Source of the DNA: Brevibacterium antiquum
GTDB taxonomy: Bacteria > Actinomycetota > Actinomycetes > Actinomycetales > Brevibacteriaceae
Direction of reading: 5' to 3'
Length of the DNA: 64,000 bases
NCBI RefSeq assembly: GCF_016107655.1
Contig: NZ_JABASX010000005.1
Coordinates: 186,001-250,000 of the forward strand
Shown here piece after piece: positions 9,075-53,362 of the stretch. A program made the position numbers and the translations under genes. Below the pieces are notes generated by a model. That model was not told the origin of the DNA and searched no databases. It worked only from the letters and a program-made list of their open reading frames with translations. Each line of letters begins with the position of its first letter. Within the stretch, counting starts at the first letter, position 1.

Positions 9075-10600
9075 CTCTCGTCGTCCTCTCCCTCTGCGCG
9101 GGCCTCATTCTCGGCCCACAGCTGTCTGAAGCTCTTCTCCGGCAGGGCGGGGATGTCACGGCTCGAGGTCCATGCCCCGGCGATTCCTGGCAGAGAATTG
9201 ATCTGCTTGTCCCCGGCCACCGCGTGGGCGATCGGCAGACCGGATTCGGCTGCGGCCATCCTCTTGCCATCGCTCATCATCCACGAGGCTCCGGTGAGTG
9301 CGGTGTCGAGTTGGGAGGAGACGGGGGAGTGGTTGGCCTCGACGTCCTCGCCGCGCAGGTGGACGAGGATCTCCGGGATGTTGATCTTGACCGGGCATAC
9401 GTCGTAGCAGGCCCCGCACAGACTCGAGGCATAGGGCAGCGAGCCGTTCTCCTCTGCTTCGACGCCGGTCATCAGCGGCGAGAGGATCGCACCGATCGGG
9501 CCCGGATACGTCGACCCGTAGGCATGCCCGCCGGTGCGCTCATACACGGGGCAGACGTTCATGCAGGCCGAGCAGCGGATGCAGTTCAGCGCGCTGCGCC
9601 CGTGCTCATCGGCCAGGGCACGGGTGCGTCCGTTGTCGAGGAGGACGAGATGGACGTTCTGGGGGCCATCGCCGGGGGTAGTGCCCGTCCAGAACGAGGT
9701 GTAGGGGTTCATCCGCTCCCCGGTCGAGGAGCGTGGCAGCAGCTGCAGGAAGACTTCGAGATCGTCGAAGCCGGGCAGCAGCTTCTCGATGCCCATCACC
9801 GTGATCAGGGTCTCCGGGAGGGTCAGGCACATGCGGCCGTTGCCCTCTGATTCGACGACGCCGAGCGTCCCGGTGTCGGCGATGCCGAAGTTCGCTCCGG
9901 AGATCGCGACCTTCGTGGTCAGGAACTTGTGTCGCAGATGCCTCCGGGCCGCCTCGGCGAGGACCGCGGGCTCATTCGTCAGCTCTCCTGCATCGGGCAT
10001 CTTCTCCATGAAGATGTCGCGGATCTCGTCACGGTTGCGGTGGATGGCGGGCACCAGGATGTGGCTGGGCTTATCGTCGCCGAGCTGGACGATGAGTTCG
10101 GCCAGGTCGGTTTCGAAGGCGTCGATGTCCTGGGTCTCGAGGTGCTCATTGAGTCCGATCTCCTGGGTCGCCATCGACTTCACCTTGATCACCTCGCGAC
10201 GGCCGGACTCGAGCACAGGGGCGTTGGCCTCGACGAGTTCGGTGACGATGGCGTTGGCCTCATCGGCGTCCCGGGCCCAGTGGATGACTCCGCCGGCGGC
10301 GGTGAAGTTCTTCTCGAACTGCGCCAGATACTCGGGCAGGTTCTCCATCACCTGGTTCTTGGCCCGAGAGCCTGCTTCGCGCAGGGCCTCCCAATCGTCG
10401 AGTTCGGCGACGACCTCGGAGCGTTTGTCGCGGATCGTGGCGGTCGCATGTCCGATGTTGTTGCGCAGCTGCTGATTCGACAGGTGCTGGTGCGAGACCT
10501 TCGCGAAGGACTCGTCTTCGACGATGTTGCCCTGTCCGCCCGGGATCTCCTGGTCGTCGTGACGTGTGGACCGCAGCAGCGGCATTCCCAGAAAAGTCAT
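9071..10600 (-). CDS. lutB: Lactate utilisation iron-sulfur protein LutB
   Basis: Iron-sulfur subunit of the LutABC lactate oxidase complex. The N-terminal LUD-like domain (MATQEIGLNEHL, ISGANFGIADTGTLGVVESEGN) is followed by two 4Fe-4S motifs: CIRCSACMNVCPVYE near residue 320 and CGACYDVCPVKINIPE about 50 residues later. The C-terminal end, KSFRQLWAENEARAEG, is usual for the family. Start ATG 10600 overlaps the lutA stop in an ATGA. Length 509. Confidence 0.95.
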   Translation of the reverse strand: MTFLGMPLLRSTRHDDQEIPGGQGNIVEDESFAKVSHQHLSNQQLRNNIGHATATIRDKRSEVVAELDDWEALREAGSRAKNQVMENLPEYLAQFEKNFTAAGGVIHWARDADEANAIVTELVEANAPVLESGRREVIKVKSMATQEIGLNEHLETQDIDAFETDLAELIVQLGDDKPSHILVPAIHRNRDEIRDIFMEKMPDAGELTNEPAVLAEAARRHLRHKFLTTKVAISGANFGIADTGTLGVVESEGNGRMCLTLPETLITVMGIEKLLPGFDDLEVFLQLLPRSSTGERMNPYTSFWTGTTPGDGPQNVHLVLLDNGRTRALADEHGRSALNCIRCSACMNVCPVYERTGGHAYGSTYPGPIGAILSPLMTGVEAEENGSLPYASSLCGACYDVCPVKINIPEILVHLRGEDVEANHSPVSSQLDTALTGASWMMSDGKRMAAAESGLPIAHAVAGDKQINSLPGIAGAWTSSRDIPALPEKSFRQLWAENEARAEGEDDER

Positions 10601-11592
10601 CGCAGACTCCCTCCGCTCACGGTTGCTCCTTCGCTTTGGACACGCAGCGGGTCCTCCTTCGTCGACGCCAGGATCCGGGCCTGGTGGACCGTCGACTGGC
10701 CGACTCGCAGACCCGACTGCTGCAGGCTCGGTTCCTGCGGCCGCGTGCCCTGTTCGCCGGGGACACGGTGGTCGTCGTCATCGGCACCGACGACTGCGGT
10801 GAGGCCATCGGTGGTGTCATCGGCTCCCACTCTGCCGCTCGTCTGCTTCACATGCACCGCAGTGACGTCGGGGGTGCCCTCGAAGTTCCCCGTGCGTTGG
10901 AATCGGGAGATTCCGCCGCCCATGTGGAGCAAACAGGACGCGTCTCCGCCGGTGCACACCTCGGCGCCGGTGGACTGGACGGTCCGAATCTTGTCCGCGA
11001 GCATCGCCGAGGACACTTCGGAGTTCTTCACCGAGAACGTCCCACCGAATCCGCAGCAGGCGTCGGCCAGGGGAAGTTCGACGTAGTCGATTCCCTCCAC
11101 CGAACGCAGCAGATCGCTCTGCCGGTCGCCGAGGCGCAGCAGGCGCATCCCGTGACACGAGGGGTGGTAGGTCACCCGGTGCGGGAAATACGACCCCAGA
11201 TCAGTGGCGGCATCGGTGATTCCTAAGACATCGGTGAGGAACTGGGAGAGTTCGTAGGTGCGTCCGGCGATGTCGGCAGCCTCCGTGGCCAGAGCCTCAT
11301 TGCCCATCCGCCTGGCGACCATGGGCTGCTGATGTCCCAACGAGGCCACGCAGGAGGCCGAGGGGGCGACCGCGGCGTCCCATTCGGTGCTGGAGAAGGC
11401 GCGGGCGTGGGCGGCGATCACGGGTTCGGCCTGCGCGAACTTTCCCGAGTTGATGTGCATCTGGCCGCAGCAGGTCTGACCCTCGGGGAAGATCACCTCA
11501 TGACCCAGCCTGCGCAGAATCGTCACAGTCGCCTGCGCGACCTCCGGATACATGGCATCGACGATGCACGTGGCGAACAGTGCAATCTTCAT
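10597..11592 (-). CDS. lutA: Lactate utilisation protein LutA with an unusual internal insertion
   Basis: CCG-domain Fe-S protein of the LutABC complex. Both cysteine-rich motifs are present: FATCIVDAMYP and TCCGQMHINSGK, then YHPSCHGMRLLR and ADACCGFGGTFSVK. Family members of about 240 residues end soon after GGGISR with an ILAST motif. Here roughly 65 low-complexity residues rich in Asp, Gly, Thr and Gln separate GGGISRFQ from ARILASTKEDP. The reading frame is open throughout, so it is an insertion rather than a frameshift. GGAGGT precedes the ATG at 11592. It heads a three-gene operon divergent from a GntR regulator. Confidence 0.92.
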   Translation of the reverse strand: MKIALFATCIVDAMYPEVAQATVTILRRLGHEVIFPEGQTCCGQMHINSGKFAQAEPVIAAHARAFSSTEWDAAVAPSASCVASLGHQQPMVARRMGNEALATEAADIAGRTYELSQFLTDVLGITDAATDLGSYFPHRVTYHPSCHGMRLLRLGDRQSDLLRSVEGIDYVELPLADACCGFGGTFSVKNSEVSSAMLADKIRTVQSTGAEVCTGGDASCLLHMGGGISRFQRTGNFEGTPDVTAVHVKQTSGRVGADDTTDGLTAVVGADDDDHRVPGEQGTRPQEPSLQQSGLRVGQSTVHQARILASTKEDPLRVQSEGATVSGGSLR

Positions 11593-49063: not shown

Positions 49064-49582
49064 TCAGTCGGTGAAGAGTGTGTGCACATCGCCGGTGAGC
49101 TTGCGCCCGCCGAGCGCTTCGAGCTCGAGGACGACCGCCGAGCCGATGACCGCCGCGCCGAGGTCCTTCACGAGCGCCTGAGCGGCAGTGAGCGTCCCAC
49201 CTGTGGCGAGGATGTCATCGACGAGCAGAACGCGTTCGCCGGACTTGAGCACATCGGGGCCCTCGATCGTGGCGGTTCCGTACTCGAGCGAATACGACAC
49301 TGCTGCTGCCGGTCTGGGAAGCTTGCCGGCCTTGCGGATGGGCAGGATGCCGACACCTGTCATCGCCGCGATGGTTCCGGCGAACAGGAAACCGCGAGCT
49401 TCGAGGCCGCCGACGATGTCGAATTGTCCCTCGAACGGTGCGATGAGCGCCTCGGTGACGGCACGCATGGCGGCACCATCTGCAAGCAGGGGAGAGATGT
49501 CACGGAAGTTCACCCCCGGCTCCGGATAGTCGGGAATCGAAGTGATCAGGGTCTTCGCGCGTTGGAGATCTGTATTCGTCAC
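49064..49582 (-). CDS. apt: Adenine phosphoribosyltransferase
   Basis: Salvages adenine to AMP with PRPP. PRPP-binding motif RVLLVDDILATGGTLTAAQ; N-terminal YPEPGVNFRDISPLLAD; GLEARGFLFAGTIA. Length 172, normal. Starts at GTG 49582; TATCGT (minus strand) ends six bases upstream, so it is probably leaderless and driven from the palindromic divergent promoter. Confidence 0.95.
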   Translation of the reverse strand: MTNTDLQRAKTLITSIPDYPEPGVNFRDISPLLADGAAMRAVTEALIAPFEGQFDIVGGLEARGFLFAGTIAAMTGVGILPIRKAGKLPRPAAAVSYSLEYGTATIEGPDVLKSGERVLLVDDILATGGTLTAAQALVKDLGAAVIGSAVVLELEALGGRKLTGDVHTLFTD

Positions 49583-49588
49583 GGGTCA

Positions 49589-49612
49589 ACGATACTCGGT
49601 GGGGAGTATCGT
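49589..49612. promoter_or_regulatory. Symmetric divergent promoter/operator between apt and the methyltransferase
   Basis: ACGATACTC (49589-49597) and GAGTATCGT (49604-49612) are perfect nine-base inverted arms with a six-base spacer. Each arm contains TATCGT reading outward, a credible -10 for apt on one side (six bases before its GTG) and for the methyltransferase on the other. A dimeric regulator bound here would shut both. Confidence 0.6.
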
Positions 49613-49625
49613 AGTGGACACCGGA

Positions 49626-50243
49626 ATGGGGGTCGCCATGGAGTCCAAGCATCCACAGGTCTCGGTCCCAGAGGCCTTTTCCCAGGTGCCTCGTGAGCTG
49701 TTCCTACCCGAGGAAGAACGACACTTCGCCTCCAGCAATGTGCCGCTGTCAATCGGCGAGAGGCAGACGAACTCCCAACCAAGCACCGTTGCGGACATGC
49801 TCGAGCTACTCGAACCGCGGCCCGGGCATCGGGTGCTCGACGTGGGCTCAGGCTCGGGGTGGACAGCGGCTCTCCTCGGCGTCCTCGTCGGTCCGCGTGG
49901 ACAGGTGACTGGCGTGGAACGCCACCATCGGCTCATCGAACGCGCACGGGCGTCGCTGCGGCGGCTCGATCCTGACACTGTCGATCTGAGCAACGTCGAG
50001 ATCATCACTGCGGACCCGGGAACCCTCGGCCGGCCGGATGCTGGCCCATTCGACCGGGTCCTCGTCTCGGCTGAAGCACAGACTCTGCCAACCGAACTCA
50101 TCGAGCAGTTGAGGGTCGGCGGCGTCATGGTCATCCCCGTGGCAGGGGAGATGTTGAAGGTCGTGGTCACCGGAACCGGTGACCACGACGTCTCCATCAC
50201 GCGGCACGGACAGTACCGCTTTGTCCCGCTCATCCGCGACTGA
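49626..50243 (+). CDS. Protein-L-isoaspartate O-methyltransferase-like protein
   Basis: SAM-dependent methyltransferase of the Pcm family, about 205 residues. VPEAFSQVPRELFLPEEERHFA, ERQTNSQPSTVADMLELLEPRPG and the SAM-binding RVLDVGSGSGWTAALLG follow the family pattern; ends with RYRFVPL-like QYRFVPLIRD. It could repair isoaspartyl residues. Start ATG 49626 or 49638; the first lies 13 bases after the -10. Divergent from apt. Confidence 0.83.
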   Translation: MGVAMESKHPQVSVPEAFSQVPRELFLPEEERHFASSNVPLSIGERQTNSQPSTVADMLELLEPRPGHRVLDVGSGSGWTAALLGVLVGPRGQVTGVERHHRLIERARASLRRLDPDTVDLSNVEIITADPGTLGRPDAGPFDRVLVSAEAQTLPTELIEQLRVGGVMVIPVAGEMLKVVVTGTGDHDVSITRHGQYRFVPLIRD

Positions 50244-50299: not shown

Positions 50300-50369
50300 C
50301 AGCCATCAGCTACGTGTACCCACAAAAGCACAGTGCAGGCGGTGTGCTTTTGCAGGCTGAGGTAGCTGA
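50300..50369. repeat. 70-bp palindromic repeat, copy 1
   Basis: First of two direct copies flanking the AbiEi/DUF559 gene; 69 of 70 bases match copy 2. Internal structure: outer arms TCAGCTAC (50306-50313) and GTAGCTGA (50362-50369); inner arms CAAAAGCACA (50323-50332) and TGTGCTTTTG (50343-50352) around a ten-base loop. The inner stem with its T run could terminate transcription in both directions. The only mismatch, T at 50317, corresponds to the stop-codon third base in copy 2. Confidence 0.95.
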
Positions 50370-50399
50370 AGTGAGGTATTTTATTATTGTTTATTGTCA

Positions 50400-50405
50400 T
50401 ATGAT
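50400..50405 (+). promoter_or_regulatory. -10 element of the repeat-bounded gene
   Basis: TATGAT, one base from the TATAAT consensus, lies in a markedly A+T-rich stretch (50374-50430) unlike the rest of the window and about 23 bases before the ATG at 50429. No ribosome site is seen between. Confidence 0.4.
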
Positions 50406-50428
50406 GGCATTAGATGCAATATTGATGC

Positions 50429-51439
50429 ATGTACCAGGTATTCGACACTGCTCGATTGCTCAGGCTCGGACTGTCTGAGCGTGATATTCGCAAGGCGGCC
50501 GCATGCTGCTTGGAACGCGTCGCCCGCGGTCGATTCGCTGTCCGACGAAGATGTGACAATGAACGGCATCGGCGAGTTTGGGAATCTGTCGACCAAGAAG
50601 ATGCAGAGCTTCTAGTGAATACGAACGATTTTCGCGATGTCCTCGAGCGACTGAAAGTTCTCATCAGGGCTCGCGCGGATACAGCGAGCGATCGCCAGCA
50701 GAGCGCGGGTGGCCGAGTGCGAAATGAAGTCTTCTCCCCTATTTCGGCCGCTCTCCTGTGGACGCTTGAGGTCGCTCGACCGATCGAGGGGCGCGTTGAA
50801 GTGATTCGGCCGGGTATCAGCCGGCGCCACGCAAATCTGATCGTCAGAAGACGAACGCTCCCGCCGGAGCATGTTGCTAGAATCGGAGATGTCGCCGTCA
50901 CCACTCTTGCCCGGACTCTCGTCGATGTCGCCCGAGACTACGGCTTGGACGTGAGTGTTCCTATGCTCGACAATGCATTGCGACGAAACAAGGTGTCGAA
51001 GGCTCAGCTCTTCGACGTGGTACAGGCTGCCCATGAGGTGAGGAACGAGAATCGGGTCACTGAGGCAATCAGCTTGACGGATCCCCTCAGAGAGTCACCT
51101 GCCGAATCGATTGTCGCAGTTCGGTTCTTCGAAAACGGAATCCTCGATTTCGAGTCTCAGGTCGAAGTCCGCGATGCGCAGGGTCGCTTCATAGCCCGTG
51201 TCGATTTCCTGCATCGAGGGGCGATGATCATCGTGGAGTTCGACGGACGAGGCAAGTACTTCCTCGACGACCGTGATCACAGAGTGGCCTTTGACAGAGA
51301 ACGTGAGCGTGAGCGGCAGCTGAGAGCGCTTGGCTATCATGTCGTGAGGATCTTTTGGAAAGATCTATTTCGTCAGCAGAAGTTCACTGAGTTGGCTCGA
51401 TTGGTAAGGGCACGTATGGCTCAGCCATCAGCTACGTGA
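50429..51439 (+). CDS. AbiEi-like / DUF559 (Vsr-like nuclease fold) protein, orphan
   Basis: 336 residues in two parts. Residues ~1-40 (ARLLRLGLSERDIRKAAA then RVARGRFAV) resemble the AbiEi antitoxin winged-helix domain; residues ~235-330 resemble DUF559, a Vsr-like PD-(D/E)xK fold, with D259 in RVDFL, E270/D272 and K276 in VEFDGRGKY, and the closing RERERERQLRALGYHVVRIFW. No AbiEii toxin gene is adjacent. The upstream region is A+T-rich, codon use is looser than its neighbours, and the last codons plus stop lie inside repeat copy 2. Likely acquired; a defence or DNA-processing role is inference only. Confidence 0.75.
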   Translation: MYQVFDTARLLRLGLSERDIRKAAACCLERVARGRFAVRRRCDNERHRRVWESVDQEDAELLVNTNDFRDVLERLKVLIRARADTASDRQQSAGGRVRNEVFSPISAALLWTLEVARPIEGRVEVIRPGISRRHANLIVRRRTLPPEHVARIGDVAVTTLARTLVDVARDYGLDVSVPMLDNALRRNKVSKAQLFDVVQAAHEVRNENRVTEAISLTDPLRESPAESIVAVRFFENGILDFESQVEVRDAQGRFIARVDFLHRGAMIIVEFDGRGKYFLDDRDHRVAFDRERERERQLRALGYHVVRIFWKDLFRQQKFTELARLVRARMAQPSAT

Positions 51440-51491
51440 ACCCACAAAAGCACAGTGCAGGCGGTGTGCTTTTGCAGGCTGAGGTAGCTGA
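51422..51491. repeat. 70-bp palindromic repeat, copy 2
   Basis: Direct copy of the element at 50300-50369 with one difference, A at 51439 instead of T. It begins within the last codons of the AbiEi/DUF559 gene, supplies its QPSAT end and TGA stop (51437-51439), and then provides the hairpin that may terminate both this gene and the convergent ABC transporter operon. Confidence 0.95.
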
Positions 51492-51508: not shown

Positions 51509-53362
51509 TCACACCAGCGAGTCCCGCCACGCCTTGTGGAGTTGGGCGAACTTGCCTGCACCGGAGATCAGCTCATCCGGCGTGCCGTCCTCGATGATGC
51601 GCCCGGAGTCCATGACGAGGACACGGTCGGCGATCTCCACGGTCGACAGCCGGTGGGCAATGATGATCGCGGTTCGGCCTTCGAGGACTGTCGCCAGCGC
51701 CTTCTGCACCAGCCGTTCGGAGGGGATGTCGAGGTGGGCGGTCGCCTCGTCGAGGACGACGATGTCCGGGTTCGCCAAGAACACGCGGGCGAAGGACACA
51801 AGCTGGCGCTGTCCCGAACTCAGCCGGCCGCCGCGCTTCTTCACATCCGTCGCGTAGCCCTCGGGCAGATTGCGGATATAGGGGTCGAGGCCGACGGCCA
51901 CAGCAGCGGCGAGGACCTCGTCATCACCGGCATCGGGATTGCCGATGCGAATATTGTCGGCGATCGTGCCCGCGAACAGGAACGACTCCTGGGTGACCAT
52001 GACCACGCTCTGACGCAGCTGAGCATCGTCGAGATCACGCAGATCCACCTCGTCGATGGTGATCCGACCTTCACTGGGATCGTAGAACCGCGTGACCAAC
52101 TTGACCAAGGTCGACTTGCCCGCGCCTGTGGCGCCCACGAGGGCCACGATCTCTCCCGCTGGGATGCGCAGGTCGAACCGGGGGAGGACATCGGGACCGT
52201 CGCCGTAGGAGAAGCGGACATGGTTGAGATCGATCGAGCGCCCGCTGGGCTTCGAAGCCAGCTCCTCCGCCGCCGAGGTGGTGCCTGAGGTCTGGTGGGA
52301 TCTGTGCGCTGGCAGGGCCTTCGGACTCGTCGGTGCCACCACCTCGGGATCGGTGTCGAGGACGGCGGCCATCTTCTCCAGCGCCGCCGAGGCGGACTGA
52401 TAGAGGTTGAATGACTGAACCAGTTCATCAAGTGGACCGTAGAACCGGCGCAGGTAGAGGATGAACGCCGCGAGCACGCCGATCTGGGTCCAATCCTCGA
52501 TGACGAGCCACGCGCCGACGATGATGATGACCGTCTGCGTGACATTGCCGACCAGCCGCGTCCAGCCCGCGAACCAGGCCACGCCGCGCAGAGCATCGGT
52601 GTTGGCGTCGCGGTACTGGGTGTCCTCGTCTTTGAGGGTGCCGCGGCGATCGGGCTGCCGGCGGTAGGCCTGAACAGCACGGATCCCGCCCATGGTCTCG
52701 ACGAAGTGGACGATGACCTTGGCGATCGAGGTCCGAGTCCGGCGGTAGGCGTTGCGCTGTGATGTATGGGCGGACTTGGTGATGAAGAACAGCGGGATGA
52801 ACCCGAGGAAGACCACGATGGCCAGGGGCACGTCGAGGACGATGAGGGTGACGGCGATGAACGTCATCTCGAACAGAGCCAGCGCCGTGTCGAAGAGCGA
52901 GTAGGTGAGGAACTGCTGCACCGACTCCATGTCAGAGGTCTGCCGCGACACCAGCCGACCCGAGGTCGATCGCTCGTGATACCCCAGGTCGAGGCGTTGG
53001 ATGTGATTGAACAGCCGGGAGCGGAGAGTGTAGACGACCTTCTGAGCGGTGATGCCGACCAGCCTCGTCGAGGTGAAAGCGAGGACCGCCGAGGCGATGG
53101 CAGAGATGACGAAGGCGGAGACTGCCCGAATCAGCGGCTCTGGATCGCCCTCGACAGCTCTCGGAACACCCTTGTCGAGCGCATCGGCGATGAAGATCGG
53201 ACCGATGACGAGGAATAGAGCGGTGAGCACGACGATGACGAATAGGAAGATCGCCATCGGCAGATGCGGTCGAACGAGTGAGAGGAGCAGCGCACGGGCC
53301 TTCTTCGCGATGTCCGGCGGAAGCTGCTCGACCTCGTCCTCATTGAGGCGTGGAATGCTCAT
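51509..53362 (-). CDS. ABC exporter half-transporter, catalytically intact subunit
   Basis: 617 residues: six-helix type IV exporter membrane domain, then an ATPase domain. Walker A GATGAGKST, Q-loop VTQESF, signature RLSSGQRQ, Walker B IVVLDEATAHLD with the catalytic Glu, and H-loop IIAHRLSTV. Second gene of a two-gene operon, overlapping its partner by ATGA (53359-53362), so the two form a heterodimer. Drug or lipid export is typical; substrate unknown. Confidence 0.92.
   Translation of the reverse strand: MSIPRLNEDEVEQLPPDIAKKARALLLSLVRPHLPMAIFLFVIVVLTALFLVIGPIFIADALDKGVPRAVEGDPEPLIRAVSAFVISAIASAVLAFTSTRLVGITAQKVVYTLRSRLFNHIQRLDLGYHERSTSGRLVSRQTSDMESVQQFLTYSLFDTALALFEMTFIAVTLIVLDVPLAIVVFLGFIPLFFITKSAHTSQRNAYRRTRTSIAKVIVHFVETMGGIRAVQAYRRQPDRRGTLKDEDTQYRDANTDALRGVAWFAGWTRLVGNVTQTVIIIVGAWLVIEDWTQIGVLAAFILYLRRFYGPLDELVQSFNLYQSASAALEKMAAVLDTDPEVVAPTSPKALPAHRSHQTSGTTSAAEELASKPSGRSIDLNHVRFSYGDGPDVLPRFDLRIPAGEIVALVGATGAGKSTLVKLVTRFYDPSEGRITIDEVDLRDLDDAQLRQSVVMVTQESFLFAGTIADNIRIGNPDAGDDEVLAAAVAVGLDPYIRNLPEGYATDVKKRGGRLSSGQRQLVSFARVFLANPDIVVLDEATAHLDIPSERLVQKALATVLEGRTAIIIAHRLSTVEIADRVLVMDSGRIIEDGTPDELISGAGKFAQLHKAWRDSLV

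Follow-up and report, generated by a model that had tools for sequence, protein, structure and literature searches.

A family of palindrome-flanked genes for putative AbiEi-like/Vsr-type nucleases in Brevibacterium: a candidate REP-like system

Within a 64,000-nucleotide stretch of a Brevibacterium antiquum genome (hereafter the window; contig NZ_JABASX010000005.1, positions 186,001 to 250,000, in an assembly of 4.25 Mb and 24 contigs), a gene of 336 codons lies between two nearly identical palindromes, which raises the question of what the palindromes and the gene have to do with each other. An earlier note on this DNA had offered several answers, including a terminator-like palindromic element that was duplicated, a possible mobile or defence cassette whose repeats could allow precise excision, and repeats that serve as structural DNA targets. 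These possibilities were examined at the window locus, in its counterparts in other Brevibacterium genomes, and among related genes and palindromes elsewhere.

The window locus and its protein

The features of the locus are collected in Table 1. Coordinates and identity (69/70) of the two direct 70-nt repeats were reproduced as first described, as was the A+T-rich stretch of 59 nt on the promoter side. The sole mismatch, T50317 versus A51439, falls on the final base of the gene's TGA stop codon (51437-51439), and the downstream copy holds the last codons of the gene. This mismatch looks like an ordinary substitution of no general meaning, because at L083, a close relative of the window locus, both copies have A at that position. 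Folded as DNA, the repeats form long hairpins of -17.8 kcal/mol upstream and -18.0 kcal/mol downstream (z -3.45 and -3.58), and none of 200 shuffles folded as well. Inspection of the sequence found no T tract at either copy.

Table 1. Coordinates of the palindrome-gene-palindrome unit and its neighbours in the window
Feature	Position	Strand	Remark
PCMT (protein-L-isoaspartate) methyltransferase gene	49542..50243	+	upstream; Pfam E 5e-46; marker for empty sites
Upstream palindrome copy (70-nt hairpin repeat)	50300..50369	.	direct repeat of 51422-51491
A+T-rich stretch (59 nt) from the palindrome to the start codon	50370..50428	+	probable promoter/operator, from sequence
336-codon gene	50429..51439	+	predicted AbiEi-like N-terminal part (~1-218) and Vsr/EDxHD-type nuclease domain (~222-331)
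Downstream palindrome copy	51422..51491	.	direct repeat; overlaps last codons and stop of the gene
ABC transporter gene	51509..53362	-	downstream, convergent; Pfam; marker for empty sites

A Pfam scan of the neighbourhood identified PCMT, two ABC transporters, a phosphoribosyltransferase, and a PTS component, and at the window locus it found no AbiEii toxin or transposase among the direct neighbours of the gene, as the earlier note had stated. A defence island was considered as the setting and rejected, given these neighbours and a motif-based scan of viral contigs that was negative.

The nearest named relatives of the protein are in Brevibacterium, the best being from B. antiquum CNRZ 918 (95%). 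Profile searches gave weak matches to AbiEi in PADLOC (best E 5.4e-8), matches to MTES_1575, RAP, and DUF559 in Pfam that all fall under the curated cut-offs, and no match in NCBIfam; across 38 family members, Pfam returned five families at E<=0.01, none of them transposases. An AlphaFold model from 38 family sequences, with 8 of 45 proteins excluded for a stop codon within the matched range, reached a pLDDT of 89 and a pTM of 0.86. In this model, residues 222-331 resemble the catalytic domain of I-Bth0305I (3r3p; Z 12.3, rmsd 2.2, 94 residues), which we take to be a member of the EDxHD family, and also 3hrl (Z 12.1) and Vsr (1cw0; Z 10.6, rmsd 2.7, 103 residues), with 15-18% identity to I-Bth0305I and Vsr. 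EDxHD is a family of homing endonucleases according to PMC6083498. Residues 1-218 of the model resemble AbiEi (6y8q; Foldseek E 1.9e-4; Z 8.1, rmsd 6.3, 169 residues). The protein is accordingly modelled as an AbiEi-like part joined to a nuclease domain of the Vsr/homing-endonuclease type. The proposal of a defence cassette did not fare well, drawing on just the weak profile and fold resemblance to AbiEi.

Residues E222, E226, D259, G273, and K276 are invariant both in an alignment of ten paralogues from the window genome and in the 38 family sequences. E270 is invariant in the latter set, where conservation at 268-277 is biased because loci were found with a motif over those residues, whereas two of the ten paralogues (L012 and L015) have Y or F at its position. 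E222, E226, and D259 are candidates for conserved acidic active-site residues of the Vsr-type domain. Values of dN/dS against three relatives (0.02/0.13, 0.16/1.30, and 0.15/1.38) are well below 1, and the gene is therefore under purifying selection.

A genus-wide family flanked by its own palindromes

The window genome contains 11 related genes (14 match rows), whose proteins are 26-46% identical and whose palindromes vary from gene to gene. For six of these 11 genes (L004, L005, L007, L008, L012, and L014), the upstream and downstream flanks were more similar to each other than all 110 mismatched pairs; for two more (L006 and L010) the similarity was equalled or exceeded by one of the 110, and for L009, L011, and L015 it was at background level. 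A search with an alignment of ten paralogues found family members in 54 of 57 Brevibacterium genomes. Eighty family loci, a sample from the upper part of a longer match list and mostly on long contigs, were scored for an upstream/downstream repeat against 241 further ORFs from the same loci, each 250 codons or longer, with a threshold of 34 fixed before the results. Because 69 of 80 family loci reached it versus 1 of 241 controls, the repeat-flanked arrangement exceeds chance; a repeat above threshold was absent at the remaining 11. The 80 loci are not independent of one another and form 15 clusters at 60% protein identity, 13 of which have at least one repeat-flanked gene. Among the 69 repeat-flanked loci, both copies are significantly palindromic at 44, at least one is at 58, and neither is at 11. 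The repeat-gene-repeat unit of the window is not an isolated cassette; it is one locus of a genus-wide family.

Averaged over the 80 family genes, the 70 nt ahead of the gene have a GC content of 45%. One of four words chosen by eye (TGATGC, GCATCA, TTGCAT, and ATGCAA) occurs there at 33 of 80 genes, compared with 4 of 80 after a single shuffle of each locus. Words of the TGATGC/TTGCAT type are common to paralogues with differing palindromes and are possibly an operator that these genes have in common.

The palindromes differ between subfamilies, and the two copies at one locus evolve together. Palindrome similarity between loci stays at background (medians 0.12-0.13) below 50% protein identity and climbs above 60%, and the median similarity of upstream and downstream copies within a locus is 0.62. 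In 1311 of 1413 ordered pairs of related loci, which overlap and are not independent, the upstream copy resembled the downstream copy of its own locus more closely than the upstream copy of the relative. At L005, the two copies differ by a change between A-T and G-C made on both arms. These comparisons of sequences point to co-evolution of protein and palindrome in the Brevibacterium family.

Outside Brevibacterium, 12 loci were examined with no control set, of which three are clearly repeat-flanked, two are borderline, and seven have no repeat. The clear cases, in Kribbella kalugense (L228), Compostimonas suwonensis (L232), and Ca. Janibacter merdipullorum (L223), involve distant relatives of the gene, and their repeats are similar to each other and partly palindromic; at the borderline loci (L225 and L226) the palindromes are unconvincing. 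From the Kribbella, Compostimonas, and Janibacter loci, the system may be wider in Actinomycetota.

Alleles at fixed sites and dispersed copies

Methyltransferase orthologues occur in 45 of 57 genomes, and in the window genome and 14 of the 44 relatives that have this gene a family gene adjoins the methyltransferase gene or lies within 1.5 kb of it by coordinates. The order methyltransferase, family gene, ABC gene was found by translated search at all 11 loci checked among these 15, with a partial methyltransferase match at L083. The earlier note had held that conservation of gene and repeats at one place in all relatives would speak against a cassette, and such conservation extends to this part of the relatives. 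Gene-less sites were taken from 20 of the 30 genomes that have the methyltransferase with no adjacent family gene, and none of the 20 has a family gene between the methyltransferase and ABC genes. At 11 of them just 7-46 nt separate the aligned ends of the two neighbours and hold neither palindrome nor repeat, and by eye no sequence at these empty junctions could be related to the palindromes; the other nine carry different inserts, seven of 550-684 nt and two of 1.5-1.7 kb, the latter two inspected for palindromes only. A single repeat joining the methyltransferase and ABC genes, which the earlier note had suggested seeking as the scar of excision, was found at none of the 20 sites. The palindromes of this locus therefore appear and disappear together with the gene. 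The shorter inserts (L138, L139, L140, L142, L150, L151, and L152) indicate that the junction may accept alternative small genes.

A second locus, that of the L005 paralogue, was compared between the close relatives G015 and G016. The palindrome-gene-palindrome block is 0.43-0.63 identical between them, flanked by 1.2 kb on the left at 0.86-0.93 and 2.7 kb on the right at 0.91-0.99, the latter preceded by a comparison interval of 0.77 at the right border. Identity dips a second time, to 0.63-0.84, at 1.2-1.65 kb farther left, and is 0.42 in the first interval, at the edge. We read this pattern as a probable exchange of the whole unit at a fixed site, the alternative being very fast divergence. 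Across the loci compared, the unit thus varies as one block, being there in full, missing, or replaced by a different version, which agrees in part with the idea of a mobile cassette; its position at the window locus, however, is not new. The gene itself seems to move rarely, two of its loci being old.

The palindromes of one subfamily are dispersed far beyond the gene. Matches to the palindrome of the L005 paralogue occur in 30 of 57 genomes, and its exact half-site, expected twice per intact palindrome and missing diverged copies, occurs up to 99 times per genome, compared with 0-1 for a reversed-pattern control. Defined by at least 63% identity (the next best match being 51%), the L005-type gene is in 19 genomes, and all 19 have at least five half-sites versus 3 of 38 genomes with no such gene (Fisher p 2.4e-12, phylogeny ignored). 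Those three are G013 with 51 half-sites, G016 with 12, and G049 with 5; of the remaining genomes lacking the gene, five have 1-4 half-sites and 30 have none. The correlation of gene and palindrome is partly clade structure. Draft contigs stop in or beside dispersed palindromes (the end of G000:C23 at 248541, G000:C1:23, and several contig starts of G008), and copies are therefore probably under-counted in draft genomes.

Further copies of the window repeat, which the earlier note had proposed looking for, do exist: the window genome has the flanking pair and one solo copy, and 27 places were found in 10 of 57 genomes. The exact half-site of another subfamily has few copies, in 13 of 57 genomes, and the exact core of the L007 type occurs at 16 places in 11 genomes, 14 of which adjoin the gene by coordinates. 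High dispersal is established for the L005 type only, and dispersal as a property of all subfamilies was ruled out by these three sparse palindromes.

The surroundings of L005-type palindromes were tabulated for 33 clusters from 20 stretches chosen for the half-site, of which 17 came from G002 and three from the window genome; two palindromes that are each split by an insertion sequence account for four of the 33 clusters, one per half. Thirty clusters are intergenic and three lie inside an automatically called ORF. The intergenic clusters comprise 9 between tandem forward genes, 10 between tandem reverse genes, 11 between convergent genes, and none between divergent genes, and the palindromes mostly sit shortly after stop codons. 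The two split palindromes (L233:2095-3551 and 9247-10932) are interrupted in one case by an element of the IS110 family and in the other by a transposase that has an rve integrase core, as though palindromes served insertion sequences as target sites.

Copies are present or absent at syntenic sites, with gain and loss indistinguishable here. In the region from rplA to rplJ, covering 22 genomes with 21 informative per site and with gene names taken from reading the sequence, 14 genomes have an intact palindrome after rplA, 2 have an interrupted one, and 5 have none; it is placed just past an apparently intact native terminator. Between two dehydrogenase-like genes, 16 genomes have the palindrome and 5 lack it. 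After the second of these genes, 19 genomes have it intact, 1 has it interrupted, and 1 has a different palindrome. One further intergenic site, compared in four genomes (L277:4921-5110, L273:3160-3360, L274, and L280), keeps the outer arms CTACCCGA/TCGGGTAG and variants of them together with a shared T-rich tail, and has a different palindrome as its inner core in each genome; by sequence, the hairpin core looks replaced rather than point-mutated. Among 28 dispersed copies, covariation exceeds that of shuffled sets by a modest margin (13 pairs vs 9.9 +/- 1.4; 11 of 500 shuffles).

A REP-like reading and its rivals

The closest parallel is the REP/RAYT system (TnpA-REP, REPtrons). According to PMC2817692, RAYT genes invariably have REPs at their flanks, co-evolve with these REPs, and correlate with REP abundance; there is no sign that RAYTs mobilise the genes that encode them, and insertion sequences target REPs. 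Each of these listed traits appears, at least in part, in the Brevibacterium family: the gene is flanked by two copies of its own palindrome, protein and palindrome co-evolve, the gene seems to stay put, and insertion sequences seem to target palindromes, while dispersal between genes and correlation of gene presence with palindrome abundance (phylogeny ignored) apply to the L005 type. The protein, however, is modelled as an AbiEi-like/Vsr-like fusion and not a Y1 HUH enzyme, the flanking copies are direct at the window locus whereas RAYT genes have inverted ones (orientation is hardly defined in the family's most symmetrical palindromes), the palindromes are about 50-80 nt long, and the hosts are Brevibacterium. 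By this analogy, the system would work like REP/RAYT without being a member of it, because the enzyme is unrelated and the flanking copies are direct.

Other comparisons place the parts of the protein but not the whole. The predicted fold of residues 222-331 is shared with EDxHD/Vsr-type nucleases, from which the window protein differs in being fused to an AbiEi-like part and in that, at the loci read, its gene was not seen inside an intron or intein. Residues 1-218 are like the AbiEi antitoxin of type IV toxin-antitoxin/abortive infection systems in modelled fold and PADLOC profile, but the window gene adjoins PCMT and ABC genes with no AbiEii toxin and appears to carry a nuclease domain. In IS200/IS605 elements a nuclease gene lies between two hairpin ends. 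The family resembles them in its two flanking hairpins and differs in its long palindromes, in the lack of an HUH domain in Pfam searches of 38 members and in the modelled fold, and in having paralogues that, at 26-46% identity within one genome, are not recent copies.

Taken together, these observations make it fairly probable that the family is a REP-like palindrome system with a dedicated protein, in which an AbiEi-like DNA-binding part and a nuclease of the Vsr/homing-endonuclease type recognise the palindrome and have helped it spread. Here the earlier suggestion that the repeats are structural DNA targets comes closest to the finding, and the recognition that it implies, like the cutting of the palindrome that would cause its spread, is something we infer. 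The protein would bind its own palindrome, whether in duplex, cruciform, or single-stranded hairpin form, and would nick or cut in or beside it; repair or transfer of the cut DNA would then copy the palindrome into intergenic 3' ends, and the same process would maintain the likeness of the flanking pair. This pair may in addition serve the protein as sites for its own regulation or insulation. The stronger proposal, that an AbiEi-like fusion to a homing-endonuclease/Vsr-type domain represents a new class of palindrome mobiliser and an independent, non-HUH invention of the REP/RAYT life style, is tentative, with the chances standing close to even.

A homing-type element, whose nuclease would cut alleles that have no unit so that recombination copies the block into fixed loci, with dispersed palindromes as by-products or off-target repair, draws on much of the same evidence: the best aligned fold of the model is the catalytic domain of a homing endonuclease, one locus has filled, empty, and alternative alleles, and the block that differs between G015 and G016 has fairly sharp borders. 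Such allele states are compatible with cleavage-driven spread, yet tens of dispersed palindromes would need a separate explanation, and the empty junctions hold nothing recognisably related to the palindrome, so that this account is unlikely.

Somewhat less likely still is that another enzyme, such as an IS200/IS605-type RAYT, mobilises the palindromes and that the AbiEi/Vsr-like gene is a passenger or a regulator that uses them. REP systems with a known mobiliser rely on Y1 HUH enzymes, judging from PMC2817692, PMC3733652, and PMC6006769, and some REP families have no known mobiliser (PMC3733652); CTAC/GTAG near the ends of the palindromes of two subfamilies is also reminiscent of the GTAG tag of REPs. 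Against this stand the palindromes themselves, which flank the AbiEi/Vsr-like family, co-vary with it, and in one subfamily track it, and a rough pattern search of 2.03 Mb, a partial sample of any genome, which found no HUH...NP(L/V)(R/K)xG signature.

Improbable to a slightly greater degree is a role as paired terminators or insulators against read-through, spread passively by recombination while the nuclease acts elsewhere, for example in phage defence. The usual position close after stop codons, with none seen between divergent genes, the hairpins followed by a T run at one syntenic site, and the weak AbiEi profile matches would all suit it, but the copy number of the L005 type tracks the cognate gene, the window copies have no T tract, and the palindrome after rplA lies beyond an apparently intact native terminator; as to defence, the nearest neighbours of the window gene are not defence genes and one motif-based scan of viral contigs returned no relative. 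The duplication of a host terminator by insertion, with direct and nearly identical repeats permitting precise excision that leaves one copy, is very improbable, because empty sites at the window locus lack a repeat (11 of 20 gene-less sites being 7-46 nt across with none and the other nine holding different inserts) and the same architecture recurs with other palindromes across the family.

No published account of an association between a nuclease gene of this kind and palindromes was found in the open-access literature searched, at the level of titles and the starts of abstracts, and word searches within a paper on the Brevibacterium mobilome (PMC6579920) gave no AbiE, DUF559, or IS110, and gave 'palindrom' only in the name of CRISPR. 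If the REP-like reading is true, a second class of enzyme would be tied to dispersed palindromes, and this life style would have arisen more than once. Genes that now carry the annotation of a solitary AbiEi or DUF559 protein would gain a suggested function, and the finding would provide a nuclease family with many matched pairs of protein and hairpin for studying hairpin recognition.
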